Source: Rhodobacterales bacterium HKCCE4037
GTDB taxonomy: Bacteria; Pseudomonadota; Alphaproteobacteria; Rhodobacterales; Rhodobacteraceae
DNA: 34,106 bases
NCBI GenBank assembly: GCA_015689645.1
Contig: WVSM01000018.1
Span: 1 to 34,106, forward strand
Reading direction: 5' to 3'
Shown here: positions 3,604 to 34,106 of the stretch, piece after piece
Numbering within the stretch: position 1 is the first letter of the stretch
Layout: the number at the start of each line of letters is the position of its first letter
Notes under the pieces: model-generated
Told to the model about the DNA's origin: nothing
Seen by the model: only the letters and a program-made list of their open reading frames with translations
The model's database searches: none
Made by a program: the position numbers and the translations under genes

Positions 3604-4035
3604 ATGCTTACCCCCTTCCGTATTGCCGCAGCCGCAGGCGTGCTGCTGGTTACAGGGCTGTTCACCACGATGGGCCATGCACAGGACGCCCGCTGGCAGC
3701 CCCTGCGCGAGTCGGCCGAGATCGAGAATGGCCTTCTGGTCGTCATGGTCGGCTCCTTCATCGTCGAGGGATGCGATGACATTTCGGTCCGGCGGCTGCG
3801 CTCGACCCCGTACATGATCGGCCTTGCACGGCAGGCCATGGGGCTTGGGTTCAGCCAGGCGGAGGTCGAGGAATTCATCGACGATCCGGTCGAACGGGCC
3901 CGTGTTGAGGCGCGCGCGGATGCCTATCTGGCGCAGAACGGGGCCGCCCGGGGCGATGCCGCGTCGCTGTGCCGGGTGGGGCGCGACGAAATTTCCGCCG
4001 GTTCGACGATTGGCAGGATGCTCCGGCAGGGGTAG
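3604..4035 (+). CDS. DUF5333-type exported protein upstream of nuoG
   Basis: Encodes 143 residues. The N-terminus MLTPFRIAAAAGVLLVTGL is a signal peptide with likely cleavage after GHA (about residue 25), giving a periplasmic protein. The body is helical with one Cys in VEGCDD and another in ASLCRVGRDEISAGS, which fits the DUF5333 family seen between nuo genes in Rhodobacteraceae (from memory). AGGGA at about 10 nt before the ATG decides this start; the frame is open further upstream but without signal-peptide features. The C-terminus matches that of the lipoprotein at 2043-2420. A role in complex I assembly or redox sensing is only a guess from location. Confidence 0.8.
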   Translation: MLTPFRIAAAAGVLLVTGLFTTMGHAQDARWQPLRESAEIENGLLVVMVGSFIVEGCDDISVRRLRSTPYMIGLARQAMGLGFSQAEVEEFIDDPVERARVEARADAYLAQNGAARGDAASLCRVGRDEISAGSTIGRMLRQG

Positions 4036-31707: not shown

Positions 31708-32184
31708 GACCTGCAAATCGAGCGTAGCGCCTTTGGGCATGCCGGGTATTTTGCATTTTCATGAAACAAAGATGGGGCGAGGTAACGCTTCCTTAGCCAC
31801 GCCTGTGCCAGCCTCACGGGGCGGCACAGCCGCAGCGTTCCGCGTTCGATCCGATGTATTGGTCGAAGGTGGAACGCCCGCGACGCCTGAATGCAGCGCT
31901 GCGCCCCACCCCAAACCCATTGGCGGGTTTGGCGCGGGACGCTTTGGCATGGCGATGACCGTAAACGAAGATGGCGCATCCTCTGCCCGCGAAGCCCTCT
32001 GGGATAGGGGCGGAGGATGACCTTCTCGCGTGACGACCCTCATCTTTGTTTCATGAAAATGCAAAAAGATGACGCCGGCCAAGCGTGACGGCGGCGCAAG
32101 TGGTGCGCAGCGCCGGACGCGGTCCCGGCGCATCTGCGAGGAGGGAGCGCGCTTTTGCGCGGCTCCGAGGAGCGATCCGCTTTG
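31708..32184. other. Non-coding interval between the DUF815 gene and the palindromic element near alkB
   Basis: About 480 bp without a convincing gene: the frames on both strands lack a ribosome binding site and family features. It contains a perfect 26-bp inverted repeat (31749-31774 and 32041-32066), a hairpin CCAAACCC/GGGTTTGG (31911-31918 with 31925-31932, 6-nt loop), and a GTAA-N7-TTAG sequence (31782-31796) that is a partial CtrA-like match. Short frames such as one ending at 32020 could be translated but cannot be supported. Confidence 0.6.
31749..32066. repeat. Pair of perfect 26-bp inverted repeats around a 266-bp interior
   Basis: Bases 31749-31774 are the exact reverse complement of 32041-32066. 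Each arm contains a TTTTCATGAAA core. The interior has no open reading frame of known family, and no target-site duplication is seen outside the arms (GCCGGGTA on the left, AGATGACG on the right). The arms resemble a short GGGTATTT-type intergenic repeat that, from memory, recurs in roseobacter genomes. They could be a MITE end pair or two separate inverted insertions of that repeat. Confidence 0.7.
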
Positions 32185-32283
32185 AGCGTTTCCGGTTTTG
32201 TATTGAATCGCCAATACCCTGCTACGCCTTCGGCGTTCTCGGGACATTGGCGATATCTTGTTTCAGTGAAATCCGGAAACGCT
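32185..32283. repeat. Palindromic element A, ~99 bp, downstream of the alkane monooxygenase gene
   Basis: Outer arms 32185-32195 and 32273-32283 are perfect 11-bp complements; inner arms 32207-32215 (ATCGCCAAT) and 32246-32254 pair over 9 bp; the centre is ACGCC-TTC-GGCGT (32224-32236). The right end abuts the TAA of alkB (32284-32286). The inner 50 bp closely match element B at 33594-33641. There is no T-run on either side, so it is not a simple terminator. Confidence 0.8.
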
Positions 32284-33516
32284 TTAGCGCGTCGCGGCGC
32301 GGATGGCTTGCAGCATGGCGTCCGTCTCCGGATCGTCGGAGAGGGGCGCAGGCGCTGCGGTGGCCGGTTGGGGCGGCGACGCGGCTGCGGCCCGGTCTTG
32401 TGAAGGGCCCGGCGCGGACGCCTTGACGCGCATCGGCGCAGGGGCGGGCCTGCTGGGCGGTTCCGGGGCCTCGTGAGCGGCCTGCGCCGCCTCCATCACC
32501 TTCAGCGCGCGCTTGTCCATCATGCGGTGCCAGACCGGCGGCACGGTCGCGATCATTGCCATGATCGGCATGGAGAAGGGCAGGGTGGGCACCTTCGCCC
32601 CGGTATCCAGCCGCTCGTAGGGGCGGTCGGGGTGCATGTGATGCTCGGAATGGGCGGGGGCGTTCATCATCAGGTAGGATGAGAAACCCTTGGGCGCGTT
32701 CCAGCTGTGGTGTGCGGCGACCGGCTCCAACCGGCCGCTCGGCAGGATCAGGCGTTGCAGCCCGTAGTGCTGGATATAGTCCGACATCAGGATCTGCGCC
32801 CCGGTCAGCACGCCGAGGCCGATCATCACCAGAAGCCCGCCAAGGCCCGCGTTGGCGACCACGGCCGCGGCAAACAGGATCGTGCCGCCGAGCCAGAGCC
32901 AATAGGGGTTGGAGACATGGTTCGGGCCGCGGCCCTTGCGGTCGAGGCGGTCGACCTCCTGCACGATGCCGGCTTCGAAGGAGCCGCGCCAGGCGCGGGG
33001 CAGGTAGGCCCAGAACGACTCACCGGGCAGGGGGGTGTTCGGATCCTCCTCGGTGCCGACGTATCTGTGGTGGACCAGCCGGTGCGCCGAGACATGGTGG
33101 CCGAAGCCCACGGAGACGTAGACCGCCGCGCCGAGCGCCTTGAGAAGCGGGCTGCGGCGGTGGATCAGTTCGTGCGCATTTGGGTGGCTGACCTGGCCGA
33201 AGAAGCTGGCCGTGGCCAGGAACAGCGCGAGGCTTTGGCCGAGGGTGAGGCTGCCTGTGCCGATCGCGGTGCAGGTGGCGATCAGGAGCAGCAGGTGCCC
33301 GAAGGCAAGCCCGGCTGAGAGCACGTCGTTCCATGGCACCGTCTTTTCCTCGGGCGCCGGAGGAGACGGCGGGTCGAGCAGGCGGTCCGCGACGGCGGCG
33401 ACGATCGTCAGCCACGCCAGCGCGATCCAGGCAAGTCCGCCCCACGCGGTGCCCGCCAGCAGCAGCAGGAGCAGCGGCGGCAGCGTGATGGCGGCGTAAC
33501 GGGCGATGACGGGCAT
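32284..33516 (-). CDS. alkB: Alkane 1-monooxygenase, membrane di-iron hydroxylase
   Basis: Encodes 410 residues. The His boxes that hold the di-iron site are present: HELIH (115-119), HRLVHH (145-150) and HSEHHMHP (289-296), plus H250 in DYIQHYGL, the extra box used in AlkB. About six hydrophobic helices precede and separate them. The enzyme hydroxylates the terminal carbon of alkanes with O2 and electrons from rubredoxin; no rubredoxin gene is in the window. A Pro/Ala-rich tail (about 350-410) is unusual. AAGGA precedes the ATG. The gene is bracketed by two copies of a palindromic element, which may reflect mobility. Similar fatty-acid desaturase-like hydroxylases are the main alternative. 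Confidence 0.88.
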   Translation of the reverse strand: MPVIARYAAITLPPLLLLLLAGTAWGGLAWIALAWLTIVAAVADRLLDPPSPPAPEEKTVPWNDVLSAGLAFGHLLLLIATCTAIGTGSLTLGQSLALFLATASFFGQVSHPNAHELIHRRSPLLKALGAAVYVSVGFGHHVSAHRLVHHRYVGTEEDPNTPLPGESFWAYLPRAWRGSFEAGIVQEVDRLDRKGRGPNHVSNPYWLWLGGTILFAAAVVANAGLGGLLVMIGLGVLTGAQILMSDYIQHYGLQRLILPSGRLEPVAAHHSWNAPKGFSSYLMMNAPAHSEHHMHPDRPYERLDTGAKVPTLPFSMPIMAMIATVPPVWHRMMDKRALKVMEAAQAAHEAPEPPSRPAPAPMRVKASAPGPSQDRAAAASPPQPATAAPAPLSDDPETDAMLQAIRAATR

Positions 33517-33574
33517 CGGCGGGGGTCCTTGGGTGTCCGGCCATGGGGCCGAGTGCGGGGCGTATGTGGCCTGT

Positions 33575-33671
33575 GGCGTTTCGAGAAAAGGTCGAATCGC
33601 AAATACCTTGCCACGCTTCGCGTTCTCAGGACATTTGCGATCGTTTTATCTTGGCCATTTCTCAAAACGCC
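33575..33671. repeat. Palindromic element B, ~97 bp, upstream of the alkane monooxygenase gene
   Basis: Outer arms GGCGTTT (33575-33581) and AAACGCC (33665-33671) pair, then GAGAAA with TTTCTC (33583-33588 and 33658-33663) and GGTC with GGCC (33590-33593 and 33653-33656, one G-T). Inner arms 33596-33604 (ATCGCAAAT) and 33633-33641 pair perfectly, around a centre ACGC-TTC-GCGT (33613-33623). It has the same layout and orientation as element A. Confidence 0.8.
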
Positions 33672-33773
33672 TTAGCAAGGCAATCTGGCGAAAGAATGGC
33701 GGTTTTCGCGGCTCTTTCCAAGCGGGCTGCGGGGTATTAGGTGGGGATGGCAGGCAAAGACAACAGGGTGCCC

Positions 33774-34106
<333 letters not shown>

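Follow-up and report, generated by a model that had tools for sequence, protein, structure and literature searches.

An IS630-type family of miniature palindromic elements in the Roseobacter group that often ends at stop codons

Background

The closest known kind to the element described here is RUP of pneumococcus, a repeat of about 107 bp with a TA target for which mobilisation by IS630-Spn1 has been proposed (PMC2229807). As far as the available part of that source describes it, RUP is likewise non-coding and dispersed, and it has IS630-like ends, a TA target and a stable stem-loop; the comparison is one of descriptions. Unlike RUP as described there, the Roseobacter element has a stop-codon niche and a plasmid hairpin that is kept in place. 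Two alphaproteobacterial intergenic repeats are also similar by description in the accessible text of their sources: CIR of Caulobacter and Brucella, of ~110 bp and with a GANTC site inside (PMC2229807), and Bru-RS, of 103-105 bp (PMC2267715). CIR consists of two arms and a linker (PMC2229807, as excerpted), whereas the Roseobacter element is a single hairpin in which both ends pair. Correia/NEMIS and ERIC are short palindromic MITEs with TA ends that are reported to affect mRNA processing; they occur in other bacteria, and the likeness lies in the excerpted descriptions and not in the end sequences (PMC2229807, PMC10969869). MITEPsy1 of Pseudomonas syringae, with 100 bp and the target CTAG or YTAA, is similar in size and target but, in the portion of the source at hand, is thought to be derived from an IS5-type element and makes a 4-nt duplication (PMC3189936). 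REP sequences are palindromes of 20-40 bp with a GTAG or CGTC tag, according to the part of PMC3733652 at hand; a REP/RAYT palindrome was excluded by the ~100 bp size and TA bounds of our element.

In the titles and abstract openings of the open-licence papers that the searches listed, neither an IS630 MITE of Rhodobacteraceae nor a MITE family with a stop-codon niche is described. The element reported here is an IS630-type MITE family of the Roseobacter group, a new family of a known kind, and its stop-codon niche is unusual. It explains a family of palindromic repeats found repeatedly across this group and unmatched in Rfam.

Two palindromes around the alkB-like gene

The analysed window is a stretch of 34,106 nt from Rhodobacterales bacterium HKCCE4037 (contig WVSM01000018.1). 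The original prediction had placed two like-oriented palindromes in it, and both are found in the sequence. Element A is a full MITE copy of 101 bp (32184..32284, + strand) with outer arms of the GCGTTTCCGG type and inner arms of the TCGCCAAT type; element B, 99 bp long (33574..33672, + strand), lies in the leader of alkB and combines GCGTTTCGAG outer arms with TCGCAAAT inner arms. Their bounds follow from comparison with the other copies. The covariance model R1, which was built from 21 copies of this genome, matches A at G000:C10:32180-32292 (E 1.5e-27) and B at G000:C10:33570-33680 (E 1.9e-21).

Each element folds around an inner hairpin: in A it covers 32207..32254 on the + strand and is built of a 9-bp stem, followed by internal loops and the top hairpin, as given by the fold and the copy alignment, and in B it is folded at 33596..33641 (+ strand). 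A GAATC sequence, which is a GANTC site, marks the junction of the outer and inner arms of A (32205..32209), and another is present in B (33594..33598). In comparison with dinucleotide shuffles, the fold of A has z-scores of -7.25 (+ strand) and -6.90 (- strand), and that of B of -6.82 (+) and -5.50 (-); none of 200 shuffles equalled either element on either strand.

Four pairing-preserving differences between A and B had been cited. Three are correct: that in the central hairpin, 32185:32283 vs 33575:33671, and 32212:32249 vs 33601:33636. The remaining one, at 32219:32241 vs 33608:33628, had been read as a C-G to T-A change and is out of register by one base. In the fold of A, the partner of C32219 is G32242 and that of T32220 is G32241; in the fold of B, T33608 is paired to G33629, and T33609 to A33628. 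The true change from A to B at this site is C-G to U.G plus U.G to U-A. The curated covariance models of Rfam have no match at A or B, and a known structured RNA family was rejected on this ground.

Copies in the genome and their sub-types

The R1 search of this genome yields 22 full-length dispersed copies of ~100 bp, A and B included (E <= 6.4e-12); the weaker R1 rows are mostly the same palindromes read on the opposite strand. The copies are scattered over the genome and not always near alkB, and a search with the sequence of A also finds many of them. All 22 are short, non-coding and dispersed, and carry terminal inverted repeats. Their layout is constant. From the outside inward, the outer arms are followed by a short middle stem, an asymmetric 3'-side bulge and the 9-bp inner stem; this encloses a mid stem, which contains small internal loops, and then the top hairpin. 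The outer arms fall into the sub-types GCGTTTCCGG, GCGCCCGACC and GCGTTTCGAG/GGG, the inner arms into TCGCCAAT, ACACGAAT, TCGCAAAT and TCGAAAAT, and outer and inner types are found in varying combinations.

Among the 21 copies, pairing-preserving double changes are seen in 17 of the 30 base pairs, and in the outer helix 11 of 14 pairs are changed on both sides. The alignment has 87 cells changed on both sides, compared with 32.0 (sd 4.4) in shuffles, and none of 500 shuffles reached this number; paired cells make up 91.9% vs 78.9% in shuffles. These shuffles ignore the relatedness of the copies. The number of further pair types is not above the control, as 137 of 500 shuffles were as high. The original prediction depended on other copies and on covariation: 22 copies are present, and the covariation lies above the shuffle control.

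Some sequences depart from the common pattern. One copy (L047 / L012, C34:74013-74123) is chimeric: its left arm belongs to the GCGCCCGACC/ACACG type and its right arm to the CCGGAAACGC type; its inner stem is mismatched, as if it came from recombination of two copies. Lone outer arms that lack a full element in the model search are located at C12:426605-426622 and C35:160373-160385 of this genome; they are perhaps remnants, or other elements that share those ends.

TA targets, empty sites and IS630-like ends

A and B are in all probability copies of a ~100-bp non-autonomous element (MITE) of the IS630 family. The suggestion of a mobile palindromic repeat is supported by dispersed copies, TA targets, IS630-like ends and empty sites in relatives. 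The target can be read in the relative G022, which has 29 young, little-diverged copies: TA stands at the left end of 27 and at the right end of all 29, the left site is preceded by C or T in 29/29, and the right site is followed by A or G in 28/29. TA is present at both ends of 27/29 copies in G022, 7/8 in G015, 8/12 in G004 and 10/22 in this genome. The last proportion implies that a part of the set here is old, or that its ends are misread. Two copies of this genome (L034 and L039) have CA at both ends, as expected of a copied target.

Both insertions at alkB have empty counterparts. The alkB-like gene (Pfam FA_desaturase; 32284..33516, - strand) is not part of the element, but its stop codon is formed with A: the TA at the right end of A (32285..32286), together with the first base of A on the - strand, gives TAA. 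The same gene end reads CGC-TAG in G001 and CGC-TAA in G006, where the site is empty, and CGC-TA|A here, the last A coming from the element. In G004 an element of a different sub-type occupies the same TA. Where B has the TA at its right end (33673..33674), the sites in G004 (gtggTAcacg) and in G001 (atggTAgacg) are empty and show one TA. The left target copies are decayed, to TT in A (32182..32183) and to TG in B (33572..33573). A further element, flanked by TA on either side, lies upstream of alkB in G007, and for that insertion an empty site is found too.

The 26-nt ends of the copies were compared with those of full-length IS630 elements from the same bacterial family. Twelve of the 44 ends in this genome, belonging to 10 of the 22 copies, match IS630 ends at 19-22 of 26 positions, whereas 500 control TA sites averaged 12.6 and reached 18 at most; the other 32 ends are not above the control maximum. 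Several IS630s of the family are ~1052 bp long, are flanked by two TAs and have the ends AAGCGTTTCGACATTAACCTGAGACA and AAGCGTTTCGGCTTGAACCTGAATCG or CCCGCC variants of these. The GCGTTTC arms have their best matches in L151, L155, L163 and L172, and the GCGCCC arms mostly in L152. A full-length IS630 of the same genus (L143, G007 C83) has ends TA|GAGCACGTCC, near the GAGCACTTTG ends of the G004 sub-type of MITEs.

We propose that an IS630 transposase acting in trans would recognise the outer inverted repeats. The similarity of targets and ends suggests that the element inserts at TA, preferably within YTAR, leaving TA on both sides. Both ends would have to fit one transposase, and the outer arms would then covary.

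A search for the transposase domain PF13358 (DDE_3) found no IS630 transposase in this genome and none in G022, G015 and G004. The domain was present in one of 16 genomes tested (G007) and in 67 of 295 genomes of the family. An orphaned MITE does not need its partner transposase in the same genome. Among six genomes picked for matching IS630s, three have R1 matches; G220 has at least 12 IS630 matches and no R1 match. The co-residence of the MITE with an IS630 partner is weak.

A GANTC site lies within the element in 16/22 copies of this genome, 26/27 in G022, 11/12 in G004 and 4/8 in G015; the background in this genome is 0.13 per 112 nt. IS630 ends such as that of L151 carry GANTC at one end (CTGAATCG). 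GANTC is methylated by CcrM, as stated in the available part of PMC2229807, and transposition may be controlled by this methylation.

Stop codons as insertion sites

In four genomes taken together, 49 of 69 copies have an end that is exactly the stop codon of a gene: 16/22 in this genome (a 17th is 5 nt off), 18/27 in G022, 9/12 in G004 and 6/8 in G015. Genes were called with a simple gene finder based on codon usage that was tried on the window. The count excludes G022 locus L084, which holds two copies, and includes 12 of the 14 G004 matches and 8 of the 9 distinct G015 matches; element B (L043), at a contig end, was inspected visually and scored as not ending at a stop codon. At L027, L029 and L042 of this genome both convergent neighbours end at the element, and at the position of L042 in the relative G001 two genes share one CTAG.

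Of 20 gene ends assembled for this genome, 15 (14 exact ends and the near miss) were compared with orthologues in relatives, whose orthologous stretches had no overlap with R1 matches of their own. For all 15 the protein has the length of its orthologues, in 33 of 33 comparisons. The orthologous stops are TAA or TAG in 24 of the 33; at two gene ends the relatives use TGA exclusively.

The frequency of such ends was weighed against the supply of targets. In a 434-kb sample of this genome, TAA or TAG accounts for 130 of 422 stops, and outside coding interiors stop codons make up 12.6% of TA, 23.2% of YTAR and 47.4% of CTAG sites. Simulated non-coding insertions of element A fell exactly at a gene end in 35 of 300 cases with TA and 40 of 175 with YTAR targeting. 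Against the YTAR rate, the observed 16/22 has a probability of about 1e-6; a P for the pooled 49/69 uses the rate of this genome for the other genomes and is indicative only. Against targeting of CTAG only, the excess is modest (P 0.004, with 17/22 including the near miss). Among full-length IS630s with exact ends, 4 of 12 lie in stop codons; 5 of 12 loci in G220 and 3 of 8 in G102 lack exact ends and were excluded from this count.

These numbers suggest a simple route to a harmless insertion. YTAR sites are scarce outside coding interiors here, and roughly one in four is a stop codon; in a GC-rich genome the YTAR target would steer the transposon to stops. The first base of the element after TA is often A or G, and insertion into TAA or TAG would then rebuild the stop and leave the protein unchanged, as the relatives show. 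The excess at stops may combine target preference with the survival of harmless insertions: probably the preference explains much of it and the surviving insertions the rest.

Compensatory changes and a possible function of the hairpin

The differences between A and B had been called the hallmark of selected secondary structure. This is supported only in part, in that the inner hairpin looks constrained in place on one plasmid lineage; covariation of the outer arms is also expected of two ends recognised by one transposase, and G-U pairs are not more frequent than A-C. In a strand-neutral count over 115 copies, G-U and A-C occur 26 vs 32 times in the inner arms and 24 vs 32 times in the outer arms, so neither is preferred. 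A count fitted to the model gave A-C vs G-U as 18 vs 4 in the inner stem and 37 vs 10 in the outer stem, and G-U vs A-C as 42 vs 11 in the middle stem and 61 vs 2 in the core, nearly all of the latter from one U.G pair. The model-fitted count depends on the alignment and on one recombinant copy, and its core figures also on copies that had been retrieved by their core; the strand-neutral recount is preferred. The former excludes 10 of 47 A3 rows (one truncated, six readings of the other strand, and three other-core copies or readings), and the latter excludes 13 of 47, namely those ten minus two with the other core, plus five duplicate loci. Given no preference for G-U over A-C, and since one transposase fits the covariation of the outer arms, the compensatory changes do not show selection on RNA. 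Such arm changes in mobile palindromes are in themselves no proof of RNA function, and an RNA function of the element is unproven.

One insertion is inherited at a fixed site of Roseobacter plasmids, between a regulator or hypothetical gene and a hypothetical gene, and the hairpin kept in place there offers a direct test of co-option. The site is represented by 33 records, of which 32 cover >=80% of the query and 27 are typed as conjugative; 25 copies (23 distinct) were aligned. The per-site difference among them is 0.011-0.048 in the inner arms and the parts of the mid stem and internal loops and 0.051-0.060 in the outer arms, compared with 0.292 in the bulge and 0.221 in the left middle part; in the flanks it is 0.179 over the 14 nt that end the upstream gene and 0.075 over the 14 nt with which the downstream gene begins. 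Conservation is lower in the top stem (0.146). There, 19 of the 25 copies have G-C as the first pair, 3 have A-T and 3 have A-C; the second pair is G-C in 23, T-A in one copy and C-G in another, and in 4/25 copies the third pair is broken. This pattern suggests that the inner hairpin, which directly follows the stop codon, was co-opted at this one locus, probably as an RNA or DNA hairpin on one plasmid lineage.

The plasmid element spans the gap from the stop codon of the first gene to a AGAAAGGA stretch, similar to a ribosome-binding site, before the second. In L309-L312 and L314-L334 the right outer arm overlaps the AGAAAGGA stretch and pairs with the left arm just past the stop of the first gene, an arrangement that could couple the translation of both genes. 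A wider reading, which we offer tentatively, sees in the element a mobile module of stop codon and hairpin: it would enter TAA or TAG stops, rebuild them and set a conserved hairpin with internal loops directly behind the coding region, and hosts and conjugative plasmids would keep the hairpin for control of mRNA 3' ends or for translational coupling, perhaps through a host protein that reads the ACCCTGCC and TCTCGGGACA strands.

That the element is primarily a functional RNA, a 3'-UTR hairpin acting as stabiliser, processing site or translational coupler and spread by its usefulness, with RNA selection behind the compensation, we consider unlikely. The low divergence of the inner hairpin relative to the bulge in the 25 plasmid copies would agree with it, as would the position of the hairpin immediately past stop codons and a mid-stem U.G pair that is retained on the + strand in 19/21 copies of this genome. 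Yet the 115-copy count has no G-U preference, Rfam has no match, and insertions bounded by TA with IS630-like ends account for the spread without a role for RNA. The absence of strand preference would fit template switching at replication, which corrects quasi-palindromes and would keep the arms complementary with no structural selection; pairing is indeed maintained in sub-types of quite different sequence. On the plasmids, however, unpaired bases of the internal loops are conserved in place as well (the left part is invariant at 7 of its 8 sites), which arm correction would not explain, and we judge template switching an improbable cause. Several copies lie between convergent genes, as a bidirectional transcription terminator would, but A and B have no terminator-like site and B sits in the alkB leader, away from a gene end, so this is very improbable. 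The pair was also thought to have helped to move alkB, and A and B do lie in like orientation on both sides of it, but the chance that they carried the gene as a composite mobile unit is negligible: the upstream neighbour of alkB, read by eye, is the same in 13 of 13 genomes of the genus, 9 of which have no model match, and this constant neighbourhood rules out transport by the elements, which moreover differ in outer-arm type and have separate empty sites.

No intrinsic terminator or sigma-70-like promoter was found at A or B; a terminator-like site lies near A, at 32072-32086. From its N-terminus we take the upstream neighbour of alkB to be ftsY. Near the start of this gene the window contains proline/glutamate-rich repeats of 6 and 12 nt (GAGCCC; 33918-34050).

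Distribution in other genomes and plasmids

The IS630-type MITE family is found beyond this genome, with a patchy distribution that agrees with mobility. R1 matches occur in 11 of 61 genomes, this one included, in 4 of 13 within the genus and in 44 of 248 genomes of the family (one per genus), and in a class-wide sample of 240 genomes in this genome only; samples of more than 40 genomes were searched with stricter filters, by which weak matches are lost. The exact core is present in Sulfitobacter, Ruegeria, Pelagimonas, Aliiroseovarius, Shimia, Tropicibacter, Primorskyibacter, Rhodophyticola and one Rhodobacteraceae bacterium (27 stretches); these stretches were retrieved by the exact core pattern, so that core conservation among them arises by construction and is not counted as evidence. 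The phage records searched have no match to the element. Among plasmids, 27 records match A, of which 21 are typed as conjugative.

In Sulfitobacter sp. DFL-14 another core type (TTCGCTGCCTC...GAACGCGAA) occurs within an unchanged outer layout (L180:5565-5676; L195:2329-2440 and 3758-3869), and this genome contains both core types; similar cores are present in G004, G015 and G017. In Roseovarius indicus, plasmid pRIdsm_01 carries a copy between conjugation genes (L313, 46337-46436); the end of this match coincides exactly with a type IV secretion gene's stop codon.
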